Source of the DNA: Oceaniferula marina
Lineage (GTDB): Bacteria; Verrucomicrobiota; Verrucomicrobiia; Verrucomicrobiales; Akkermansiaceae
NCBI RefSeq assembly: GCF_013391475.1
Contig: NZ_JACBAZ010000004.1
Location: 124,001-188,000 of the forward strand
DNA: 64,000 nt
Direction of reading: 5' to 3'
The notes beneath the pieces are model-generated. The model did not search any database and was not told the origin of the DNA. It saw only the letters and a program-made list of their open reading frames with translations. Below, in pieces: positions 19,834-26,869 of this stretch (position 1 is the first letter of the stretch; every line of letters begins with the position of its first letter). Both the position numbers and the translations under genes were made by a program.

Positions 19834-20511
19834 TTACATTTTCTCCTTCACCTGCTTGCCGCGGCTGGCGAGGATGTCCTCACGTGTGCGGAGCTGGGAA
19901 AGGGCTTTCATGGTTGCCTTCACCACATTGGCGTGGTTGTTGGACCCGAGGCTCTTGCCGAGCACGTCGGTGATGCCTACGGCTTCACATACGGCGCGAA
20001 CTCCACCACCGGCAATAATTCCGGTTCCGGGAACAGCGGGCTTGAGAAGCACCACACCGCCACCAAACTCAGCCTGCACTTCGTGCGGGATAGTTCCGTT
20101 GACGATCTTCATGCGCTGCAAGCGAGCTTTTGCGTCACCACTTCCTTTGCGGATACATTCAGCAACTTCCTGGGCTTTTCCAAACCCAACACCTACACGG
20201 CCTTCTTTGTCACCGGAGACCATCAGGGCGGAGAAGCTGAAACGACGTCCACCTTTCACGACCTTGGCACAGCGGTTGATGAAAACGACCTTCTCGTGAA
20301 GTTCCTTACCATCATCGGTCATTGGCTTTGGTGGAGCCTGACGCTGGGGACGGCCACGGCCACGCCCACCTTGACCACCACGACCACCACGGCCGCCACG
20401 GTTATCGGTGTTTTCTGGAGTAGGGGCTGCGGCGTCCTTGGCTGGAGTTTGAGCAGGTGCCGGAGTTTCGGTAGCGGCTGGTGCCGGAGTATCTGTTTGA
20501 TTTTCAGACAT
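19834..20511 (-). CDS. rpsE: 30S ribosomal protein S5 with RG-rich N-terminal extension
   Basis: 225 residues against about 165 for E. coli S5. The conserved core starts near residue 70 ([20 protein letters not shown]) and carries [20 protein letters not shown] and [19 protein letters not shown]. The extra N-terminal 65 residues are a Pro/Ala/Thr-rich stretch followed by a GGRGGRGG-type basic segment, probably disordered and RNA-binding. S5 acts in decoding accuracy and mRNA unwinding at the entry channel, so the extension would point to that site. The ATG at 20511 is the only start compatible with the spacing to rplR (14 bases). Confidence 0.96.
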
Positions 20512-24505: not shown

Positions 24506-25216
24506 TTAGCGATTGTTGTTGCGGTCGTTGCGATCTCCACGATCACGACGCTGTCCACCACGTGGGCGGCCGCCTTGTTGCTGTTGTGGCTTTTCTTCCT
24601 TCTTGTTGATCCAGCACTTGATTCCGATGATTCCGTAGACAGTAGAAGCCTCGGCAAATCCGTAATCGATTGGCACACGCAGTGTCTGAAGTGGCACTTT
24701 ACCTTCGCGATACCATTCGGCACGGGCGATGTCAGCACCACCGAGACGGCCGGCGCAACGGATACGGATACCTTCAGCTCCGAACTCCATGGCGGTTTGC
24801 ACGGCACGCTTCATGGCGCGGCGGAAAGCAATCCGGCGCTCCAGCTGAATGGCAACGTTTTCACAAACGAGTTGGGCATCAAGTTCAGGCTTACGGATCT
24901 CGATGATATCAATCTTGACCTGGCTTCCACCACAGAGAGCGGAAATGTCGTTGGTCAGTTTTTCGATTTCAGAACCCTTGCGGCCGATGACCAGACCTGG
25001 ACGAGCGGTGTGAAGAGTCACACGCACGCTGTTCCAAGCACGTTCGATGACCACCTTGGCCACGCCGGACATGTGCAGACGCTTCTTGAGATACTTGCGG
25101 ATCTTGAGATCCTCATGCAGTTTATCCGTGTAGTCAGTGCCGGTGGCATACCACTTGGAACGCCAGTCCTTGGAGACGGCAAGACGGAACGAGATCGGAT
25201 TGATTTTCTGGCCCAT
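24506..25216 (-). CDS. rpsC: 30S ribosomal protein S3 with Arg/Gln/Asn-rich tail
   Basis: 236 residues. It starts [22 protein letters not shown] and has the KH-type motif [15 protein letters not shown] and the C-terminal domain with [22 protein letters not shown] and [21 protein letters not shown]. The conserved part ends at [12 protein letters not shown] (about residue 205). The last 30 residues are a Gln/Gly/Arg/Asp/Asn low-complexity tail ending in three Asn and Arg. S3 lines the mRNA entry channel with S5, which also has a basic disordered extension here. Confidence 0.97.
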
Positions 25217-25249: not shown

Positions 25250-25741
25250 TTATTCGGTTTCTTCAGCTGCCGTTTCTTCACTGGCGGCTTCCGGGGCGTC
25301 CTGTTGAGGAGCCTCTTCTTTTTTCACAGCCTTAGGAGCAGCTGCCTTTTTAGGCTTCAATGTGCGCTTCTTTGGCTTGGAGGAACGCTCACGCGGCTCG
25401 GGAATTTCCTCCTCGTCGGTAAGAACGATGTAAAGGTGGCTGGTGCGCTTGCGGATGGCACCTGCGGATCCACGTGCACGTGGCTTGAATCGTTTGAACG
25501 TAGGTCCGTCACCCACTGTGGCTTCCTTGACGGTGAGTTCATCAGCAATCAACTCGAAGTTGTTTTCAGCATTGGCAACGGCGCTTTTCAGCGTTTTGTT
25601 GATCAACTGGGCTGCTTTACGTGGAGTGTAAGCAAGGGCGTCCAGTGCTTCGGAAACAGGCATGCCTTGGATGGCACGGGCAACATCACGGGCCTTCTTT
25701 GGCGAGATGCGAGCGTATTTGTAAGTGGATTTAACTTCCAT
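25250..25741 (-). CDS. rplV: 50S ribosomal protein L22 with long charged C-terminal tail
   Basis: 163 residues against about 110 for E. coli. The L22 core (STYKYARISPKKARDVARAI, the AENNFELIADELTVKEATV segment, and the tunnel hairpin FKRFKPRARGSAGAIRKRTSHLYIVL) ends near residue 112. The remaining 50 residues are first Lys/Pro/Ala-rich and then Glu/Ala-rich, probably disordered and reaching out from the ribosome surface near the tunnel exit. Its usual upstream neighbour rpsS is separated from it here by an unrelated gene. Confidence 0.96.
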   Translation of the reverse strand: MEVKSTYKYARISPKKARDVARAIQGMPVSEALDALAYTPRKAAQLINKTLKSAVANAENNFELIADELTVKEATVGDGPTFKRFKPRARGSAGAIRKRTSHLYIVLTDEEEIPEPRERSSKPKKRTLKPKKAAAPKAVKKEEAPQQDAPEAASEETAAEETE

Positions 25742-25779: not shown

Positions 25780-26517
25780 TTATCGTTGGACGGTATTGAC
25801 GGATGCGATGTCGCCGGTGCGAATCTGATCCTCAGGTGTTTCGAGTTCGGTTGGGAGCACGCCACTGAAATCCTTACGGGTCTCAGCAACAATCGCTTCG
25901 GCGAGCTTGCGGTTGCCTCGCATGATGGAAAAGGTCATTCCGCGTCTCACGGACTGTTCTTCCCCTGCATTGATCACCAACATGCCGCTTTCAGCGTCGA
26001 TACTAATGACTTTTGCGTGTTGCAGACTGCCCTGAGGCATCTGCGGGCGCGGCTTTTGCCTTAAACCGAGCGCCGCGTCAAGCTCTCGTATGGAACTTTC
26101 CAGTCGAACCCGGGCATCCGGGTCGGCAACAACCGCTGTGCGTAAGTATTCACGCATATTGGCCATCAGTTCCAAGGCAGCTTTTTCGGTCGCACGGTTG
26201 CGCTTATCGAGGACTTCTGCATTTTTTACCGCTTCGAGGGTAGCTTCCTCTCCGCCGTTTAACAGGTTATCTCCGAGTGCCGCAAAGCGCAGGCGCAGGT
26301 CGTTGACACTCTTGCGTAGTTCCGCTTCGCGTTTCTTTGAAGCGGCAAGGTCCCGGGCCAACACGGTGTATTGGGCCTTCGTCTTGCTGAGCTCACGCTT
26401 GAGCATCCGAATCTCACGCTCTTTCTCCCCTGTTCCGCTCTGCGCAGCGCATGGCATCACGAGCGCCAGGAGCCAGGCTCCGACGATACGAGTGATGATC
26501 TGTGCTGAGTGTTGCAT
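25780..26517 (-). CDS. Exported coiled-coil protein encoded inside the S10 operon, function unknown
   Basis: 245 residues, starting at the ATG for MQHSAQIITRIVGAWLL, which gives a signal peptide ending near PCAAQSG. A longer upstream frame would overlap rpsS by 89 bases and was rejected. Residues about 30-150 are charged and heptad-like (EKEREIRMLKRELSKTKAQY onward), predicted coiled coil. The C-terminal about 80 residues form beta strands (HAKVISIDAESGMLVINAG, RRGMTFSIMRG, IRTGDIASV) like SH3/OB-type barrels at the ends of other exported coiled-coil proteins. It lies between rpsS and rplV, same strand, 82 and 38 bases from them, so it must be cotranscribed with ribosomal genes unless the hairpin upstream alters this. 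No ribosomal role is evident. Confidence 0.85.
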   Translation of the reverse strand: MQHSAQIITRIVGAWLLALVMPCAAQSGTGEKEREIRMLKRELSKTKAQYTVLARDLAASKKREAELRKSVNDLRLRFAALGDNLLNGGEEATLEAVKNAEVLDKRNRATEKAALELMANMREYLRTAVVADPDARVRLESSIRELDAALGLRQKPRPQMPQGSLQHAKVISIDAESGMLVINAGEEQSVRRGMTFSIMRGNRKLAEAIVAETRKDFSGVLPTELETPEDQIRTGDIASVNTVQR

Positions 26518-26552
26518 TGGGATAATAGAAGAAATGAGCGCTGAGATGGGGA

Positions 26553-26592
26553 GATAGAGGTGATCTTTATTTAGCAGTCGACCACCTCTATC
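26553..26592 (-). other. 13-bp hairpin between rpsS and the inserted exported-protein gene
   Basis: Arms GATAGAGGTGATC (26553-26565) and GACCACCTCTATC (26580-26592) pair at 12 of 13 positions around a 14-base loop. There is no U-tract on either strand. The long stem in a polycistronic spacer is a plausible RNase III processing or attenuation site that could uncouple the inserted gene from rpsS. Confidence 0.6.
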
Positions 26593-26599
26593 GATAAGT

Positions 26600-26869
26600 T
26601 TATCGCTTACCAAGACCTCCGTGAGCCTTGAAAATACGGGTTGGAGAAAACTCACCAAGCTTGTGGCCCACCATGTTTTCATTGACATAAACAGTCACGA
26701 AGGACTTGCCATTGTGAACATGGAAGGTGTGTCCGACGAAATCCGGAGTAATCACGGACTTACGGCTCCAGGTCTTGATCGGCTTCTTATTACCGCTGGC
26801 TTCTGCAGCATCGATCTTGGCGAGAAGCTTCTGATCGACGAATGGGCCTTTTTTAAGTGAACGTGGCAT
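26600..26869 (-). CDS. rpsS: 30S ribosomal protein S19
   Basis: 89 residues, normal. It starts [19 protein letters not shown], with [21 protein letters not shown] and the C-terminal [18 protein letters not shown] typical of S19, which binds the 30S head near the A site. It follows rplB as usual. Confidence 0.98.

Follow-up and report, generated by a model that had tools for sequence, protein, structure and literature searches.

Introduction

The S10 operon holds one of the most conserved gene orders in bacteria, and in Planctomycetes and Chlamydiae its rpsS and rplV genes lie side by side. Non-ribosomal genes, partly membrane-related, are fixed in another ribosomal protein operon: secY, adk and map form part of the spc operon and are widespread there in bacteria. 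FlgT, a protein that will serve below as a structural comparison, belongs to a periplasmic setting. The accessible part of Brandis 2021 (PMC8046335) describes, for the operons of other bacteria, a path in which an insertion is followed by disconnection.

Here we analyse an open reading frame between rpsS and rplV in a 64,000-nt stretch of DNA, referred to as the window (G000:C4:124001-188000 of a 5.07-Mb draft genome). No description of this gene, hereafter the junction gene, or of its placement between rpsS and rplV was found in the literature searched, and the accessible parts of PMC6688271, PMC7203096, PMC3444138, PMC2474590 and PMC8277102 do not mention it. Our preferred reading, to which we assign a probability of roughly 0.6, is that the S10 operon took up a gene for a periplasmic scaffold or adaptor close to the phylum's root, that this gene is co-transcribed with the ribosomal protein genes, and that it was lost from this place several times.

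Results

An open reading frame separates rpsS from rplV in the window

The S10 operon lies on the minus strand, in the order rpsJ, rplC, rplD, rplW, rplB, rpsS, a 245-aa open reading frame, rplV, rpsC and rplP, with gene names mostly assigned by sight of the sequences. The reading frame does split the rpsS-rplV pair, as an earlier note on this DNA had claimed. The relevant features, in window coordinates, are as follows.

25250..25741, minus strand: rplV (L22), open reading frame, PF00237 match with E 4.8e-37
25780..26517, minus strand: junction gene (INS; window gene L002), 245 aa, ATG start, between rpsS and rplV, with homologues at the same place
25795..26022, minus strand: C-terminal six-strand barrel, about residues 166-241, FlgT-C / F1-alpha-N-like (model and VIA-align)
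26071..26430, minus strand: coiled-coil region, residues 30-149 (AlphaFold2 model), short or missing in short forms
26440..26517, minus strand: signal-peptide-like N-terminus, about residues 1-26, a hydrophobic stretch and an A-X-A-like site by a simple rule
26553..26592, minus strand: hairpin between rpsS and the junction gene, arms 26553-26565 and 26580-26592, local to the species as far as seen
26600..26869, minus strand: rpsS (S19), open reading frame, PF00203 match at G000:C4:150621-150863

The reading frame is separated from rpsS by 82 nt, and its stop from the start of rplV by 38 nt. The two ribosomal genes are normally close, as the note had assumed: their spacing is 14 nt in E. coli K-12, and the estimated gap in 28 loci of the phylum without the junction gene has a median of 50 nt and a maximum of 231. 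Searched with the protein, the window's own genome gives one match at E ≤ 1, to which an alignment profile adds a second, weaker one. A simple consensus scan of the coding strand from rpsS to rplV in the window found no promoter-like or terminator-like site, its terminator rule having a loop limit of 8 nt that would miss the 14-nt-loop hairpin upstream of the junction gene. Rfam, run over the window, returned two tRNAs and nothing else at gathering scores.

Several ribosomal proteins of the operon carry extensions. RplV of the window (25250-25741) has 163 aa and a long C-terminal tail, Lys/Ala-rich and then Glu-rich, where many other families have an open frame of 110-115 aa; at two other loci (L027, L049) the RplV frame counted from the match start reaches 265 and 226 aa. 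RpsC of the window (24506-25216) ends in an Arg/Gly/Asp/Asn-rich tail, and RpsE (19834-20511; named by sight) has an N-terminal extension that is Ala/Pro-rich and RGG-rich.

The hairpin upstream of the junction gene had been reported earlier as pairing 12 of 13 bp and had been read as a device to control or process the message. The structure itself is present: its arms are 13 nt each, 92% complementary and 14 nt apart, and the folded RNA is better than 200 of 200 shuffles (z -3.58). The functional reading is unsupported, since unusually good folding (z ≤ -2.5, gaps folded with flanks against 60 shuffles each) occurs in 3 of the 54 order-level gaps between rpsS and the gene, namely the window's own, L004 and L058, and the L004 hairpin differs from it in sequence. 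A conserved control element was rejected on this count, an intrinsic terminator because no T-run follows the hairpin, and an exact dispersed repeat because the exact palindrome pattern occurs at one place in the genome. We take the hairpin as a local feature.

The junction gene is widespread at the same place

When genomes of the window's own genus, family and order were searched with the protein, 56 of 58 (own included) gave a match, as did 45 of 45 order-level genomes in the high-quality subset (at least 90% complete, at most 5% contaminated). The arrangement rpsS-junction gene-rplV was found in 54 of the 55 order loci read, the 55th (L034) starting at a contig end before rpsS; where the junction was readable whole, the gene was in place in 54 of 54 genomes, own included. 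Neither alignment A1 nor the hairpin count includes L034, and G001, with a match at a contig end, stands outside the order count. A scan of a named collection yielded 54 records, 53 with the same three-gene order and one cut; the query was an alignment of the junction gene's own products, so absence cannot show in this count. Among the records are Akkermansiaceae, Akkermansia, Luteolibacter, Roseibacillus, Rubritalea profundi, Haloferula luteola, H. rosea and others.

The wider search covered one phylum, Verrucomicrobiota. A profile built from 54 junction proteins matched 132 of 194 genomes drawn evenly from it (E ≤ 0.01, paralogues included); PF00237 was found in 190 and PF00203 in 186 of the same genomes. 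Among the matches listed, 80 loci around rplV or rpsS were chosen by hand, one to seven per family, and 79 were counted after L101, which has no rplV in its stretch, had been dropped. Because these loci were picked after the profile matches were known, the following proportions are not estimates for the phylum: a long form (open reading frame of at least 200 aa) lies between rpsS and rplV in 9 loci and a short form (108-189 aa, its coiled coil small or absent) in 19; in 20 the junction gene is directly upstream of rplV with rpsS outside the stretch; and it is absent from a joined pair in 28 and from a broken pair in 3. Counted by family, with f36 and f54 kept outside the count, 35 of 53 (own order, f1-f6, included) contain at least one genome with a homologue next to rplV and 18 do not. 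Some members from broken operons score weakly against the profile (in f28, E 0.02 for L109 and 0.001 for L110; in f46, 3e-4 for L132), and in the barrel tree described below these f28 and f46 members fall with the broken-operon clade. At L076, a locus in a 0.9-Mb genome, the gene is absent and the rpsS-rplV gap still measures 148 nt, perhaps as a remnant.

The suggestion that the gene might be a young insertion in one lineage is refuted by these homologues, which occupy the same place across the window's order and in every large clade sampled from the phylum. Compared across Verrucomicrobiota, the gene proves widely conserved at the junction, which removes the word young and makes the locus more interesting. 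That unrelated genes split the pair in different lineages was also considered, and is rejected for the profile-matched loci: the junction barrels are homologous and stand apart from the paralogues.

Among the junctions measured, interruption is specific to this seam. Over loci of the species tree described below, all 44 with a long form and all 19 with a short form have a gap of at least 250 nt at rpsS-rplV, as against 0 of 28 gene-free loci, and none was seen at rplD-rplW, rplW-rplB, rplB-rpsS or rpsC-rplP in the loci measured (for rpsC-rplP, those other than the short-form loci). At rplV-rpsC such a gap appears in 2 of 45 long-form loci (L027, L049), where it is filled by a long L22 tail and the true gaps are 28 and 25 nt. 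Thus, among the six junctions measured, rpsS-rplV alone is interrupted and the other five are without an insert.

Trees point to an old gene

A quick species tree with 116 rows and E. coli as the outgroup was built from rplV and rpsC, to which rplB and rpsS were added where a locus had them. On this tree the presence of the gene beside rplV needs at least 12 changes, and the joined versus broken state of the operon needs 3. The change count alone is compatible with repeated gain as well as with loss and cannot tell them apart; since the gene occurs in all large clades, it is most simply old and repeatedly lost. It looks like an old, mainly vertically inherited gene and not a young insertion.

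Barrel sequences divide into junction and paralogue groups. In the smaller tree 67 junction barrels separate from 15 paralogue barrels with an SH-aLRT of 99.5. All 15 paralogues fall into a single clade (support 99) that contains no junction protein, and the window protein lies outside it; the window gene, with its barrel outside that clade and its position directly upstream of rplV, belongs to the junction group as we define it. In a 101-row tree, a branch with support 99 has on one side 27 of the 28 copies from broken operons and every one of the 11 copies from genus g72, and the 28th broken-operon copy, L130 of f44, falls among joined-pair relatives, matching the species tree. Two f10 junction proteins are nearest to the paralogue clade (support 87), so that the root between the junction and paralogue groups is not fixed. 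With about 90-95 columns (92 and 95) and quick trees made without bootstrap, fine branching is not to be trusted.

The paralogue family, found in the same genomes, shares with the junction protein both its architecture, an anchored coiled coil, and the same barrel. It differs in forming its own clade and, by eye, in being without the VR motif that is mostly present in long junction forms. Its 15 copies (at L195, L196, L197, L200, L201, L202, L203, L205, L055, L057, L059, L060) lie away from rplV, some as tandem pairs, and a scan of 10 neighbours found no common partner. One paralogue pair stands beside a PNPase gene in a genome of the window's own family, and a gene for an S1-domain protein was noted beside paralogues in another genome. 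Against the extra copies in family f9 (L225, L226, L227, L229) the junction and paralogue barrel profiles score about alike, and these copies were assigned to neither group.

The operon breaks at the junction gene, and one genus keeps the gene elsewhere

One deep clade has its S10 operon split between rpsS and rplV, and the junction gene usually heads the rplV half. A hairpin and T-run, judged by eye and fold, follows rpsS in 6 of 8 broken-operon loci (L206, L207, L208, L210, L211 and L212; not L209 or L213) and in 5 of 6 loci examined from the large broken clade. The course of the break agrees with the insertion-then-disconnection pattern in the part of PMC8046335 available.

In family f18, outside genus g72, the gene was directly upstream of rplV in 8 of 8 further loci; within g72 it was absent from that position in 12 of 12 further loci and also at L091, so linkage to rplV is not needed there. 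Eleven homologue copies were found elsewhere in g72 genomes, for 8 of which the rplV locus is among the 12 read, and weak matches occur in the g72 genomes G078, G128 and G147. A homologue is thus kept where the place is lost. Six of the 11 copies (L217, L220, L221, L222, L223, L235) lie directly behind a gene for an AcrB-type (RND) transporter, called from PF00873 at L220 and from 68-89% identity to the L220 gene at the other five. Two copies are near, not adjoining, a large open reading frame, FtsH-like in L218 and similar in size in L230, and the remaining three are at other places. We count the AcrB-type neighbour, as envelope context, for our preferred reading and the different neighbours of 5 of the 11 copies against it.

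These arrangements bear on the idea that the reading frame acts in cis, its translation tuning rplV and the genes downstream as a leader or spacer would, with the protein secondary. The distance from the junction gene's stop to rplV is often 0-40 nt, and in the broken operon the gene immediately precedes rplV and rpsS is not close by, as a cis-acting segment would predict. Conservation of the barrel at the protein level, the signal-like start and the retention of the g72 homologue away from rplV speak for the protein instead, and there is no credible known leader: in 15 broken-operon loci a single Rfam match reached E ≤ 1, and it fell far short of the gathering score. We consider a cis-acting role decidedly improbable.

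The predicted product is a signal-like start, a coiled coil and a barrel

The earlier reading of the product as a signal peptide, a long coiled coil and a C-terminal barrel is supported by an AlphaFold2 model of the window protein (mean pLDDT 81, pTM 0.42), by VIA-align and by a signal rule. In the model, helices cover residues 30-82, 90-126 and 133-149, and the barrel strands lie within 168-240. The N-terminus is hydrophobic and is followed by an Ala-X-Ala-like site. By our own rule, which combines hydrophobicity with an A-X-A site, 97 of 102 junction proteins have such a start; Lys/Arg before the hydrophobic stretch is absent in 11 of 102 and a second hydrophobic stretch is present in 17 of 102, perhaps partly from wrongly chosen starts, so that a signal peptide is not assured in every one of the proteins. 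Read from sequence, the junction protein is predicted to be exported to the periplasm. A model of a short form (L062) has the same six strands, with barrel pLDDT of 93-98 by blocks.

Searched against Pfam, the window protein reaches the cut-off of no model, and its sole NCBIfam match at E ≤ 0.01 is far under that model's cut-off. PF16538, the FlgT C-terminal domain, scores 12.6 bits (E 0.19) on the window protein, below its curated cut-off of 27 bits, and at E ≤ 0.01 it matches 1 of 54 junction members (E 0.0089). Among solved structures the single window sequence found one chance-level chain (E 0.6); the junction profile gave 44 sequences at E ≤ 1, most of which are coiled coils, and TsaP is a marginal match among them.

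By fold, the window barrel matches FlgT-type chains best, with VIA-align Z of 11.0 (the rank-1 chain of 8z5n, an LPHT ring structure; we take this chain to be FlgT) and 10.4 (3w1e). The likeness is a six-strand barrel over 74-76 residues at rmsd 1.9; the difference is an identity of 9-10%, and the rest of the junction protein is coiled coil. The alpha-type N-terminal barrel of F1/V1-ATPases shares the arrangement, with Z of 9.2-9.7 for the long form, and F1-type barrels fill the match list of the short-form barrel with Z up to 10.7; the junction protein differs in having no ATPase core and in its signal-like N-terminus. With F1-type barrels so close behind, and filling the short-form list, fold alone does not settle FlgT-C membership. 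TsaP, the LysM domain protein of the type IV pilus (3jc8), resembles the barrel by a weak profile match (E 0.021 for the whole chain); this match is marginal, and no LysM family is among the Pfam matches of junction members.

The combination of anchor, coiled coil and barrel is also that of the rod-shape protein MreC, and the junction protein might be a member of that family or another part of the elongasome. MreC structure 2j5u stands at Foldseek rank 4 (E 3.8e-3, TM 0.19-0.22), and two NCBIfam MreC models match 2 and 1 of 54 members, with best E of 0.0012 and 0.00021. A clear MreC is encoded separately in the window's own genome (E 1.9e-39, G000:C4:191735-192178), however, PF04085 is absent from the Pfam families matched by the 54 members at E ≤ 0.01, and the barrel fits FlgT-type chains better than MreC. 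We regard this assignment as very improbable.

Selection acts on the product, and codon use is ordinary

Across 13 of 13 pairs of relatives (59-97% identical, one pair including the window's gene) the junction gene has dN/dS of 0.07-0.26, values that are rough in the five pairs where dS exceeds 1. These values stay far below 1; in 38 of 39 within-pair comparisons they exceed the value for rpsS, rplV or rpsC. Judged from these sequences, the gene is under purifying selection and the reading frame is more than chance. Its codon adaptation to the ribosomal set is 0.57, compared with 0.67-0.83 for 14 ribosomal protein genes and fusA, each left out in turn, and with a median of 0.57 for 34 other mechanically called window reading frames of at least 200 aa. 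Such background adaptation suggests that the gene is probably translated at an ordinary level, with no sign of high output.

Codon use at background level speaks for the main rival of our reading. On that account an unrelated envelope gene fell into S10 once, early, and has been kept there because large rearrangements of this operon are rarely tolerated, co-transcription having no adaptive meaning. The losses, the tree showing at least 12 presence changes, the other place of the homologue in g72 and the background codon use all favour it, as does the insertion-then-disconnection path described for other operons in the accessible part of Brandis 2021 (PMC8046335). Long retention favours a use of the place instead: the gene is beside rplV in 35 of 53 families and mostly stayed there through the operon break, though loss was evidently possible. 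The dN/dS values show that the product matters, though not that its place does. Both readings are compatible with the data; we think it rather unlikely that the gene is a frozen passenger of the operon, and treat this as the leading alternative.

Discussion

Under our preferred reading, capture by the Verrucomicrobiota S10 operon near the phylum root would have been followed by mainly vertical inheritance. The product would be an exported periplasmic protein in which a coiled-coil spacer of variable length carries a six-strand, FlgT-C-like barrel, most likely a non-catalytic scaffold or adaptor of an envelope complex. If the gene shares one message with rplV and the genes after it, its transcription would follow ribosome production, with its translation set lower than that of its transcription partners; coupling to growth rate may then be of benefit. 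Among the observations that count against this reading are the presence changes on the species tree, 12 at the least, and the pair being mostly closed where the gene is missing.

The earlier note had proposed that the gene may link ribosome production with an envelope function. Co-transcription is in keeping with the order and spacing of the genes, and to that extent the tie is possible; background codon adaptation and the absence of the gene from this place in many lineages weigh against it, the latter making any envelope-ribosome link dispensable. A bolder version would make the exported protein, or its nascent signal sequence, the phylum's device for coupling ribosome production to the envelope. 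The amount of protein might report S10 transcription to an envelope machine; alternatively, co-translational export might anchor the S10 message to the membrane together with its polysomes. A break exactly at the junction gene, with the gene mostly kept before rplV, is compatible with such a device, which we nonetheless hold to be a speculative and unlikely extension.

Whichever account proves right, much of the phylum, including records titled Akkermansia, has a predicted envelope protein encoded in the middle of S10, and the gene is a candidate for naming. The locus offers a natural case in which to ask whether one message links envelope growth with ribosome synthesis, and a worked example of a ribosomal operon that gains a seam and later splits there.

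Among known systems, secY, adk and map of the spc operon are alike in being non-ribosomal, in part membrane-related genes inside a ribosomal protein operon. They are widespread in bacteria, whereas the junction gene lies inside S10 and was seen in one phylum, the one that was searched. The cases in the accessible part of Brandis 2021 (PMC8046335) are alike in their course: a small gene is inserted, and some descendants later split where it lies. They come from Gammaproteobacteria and Bacilli, and three of the four insertions lie between operons; here, in contrast, one gene sits inside S10, is spread through a phylum, and has mostly stayed on the rplV side.
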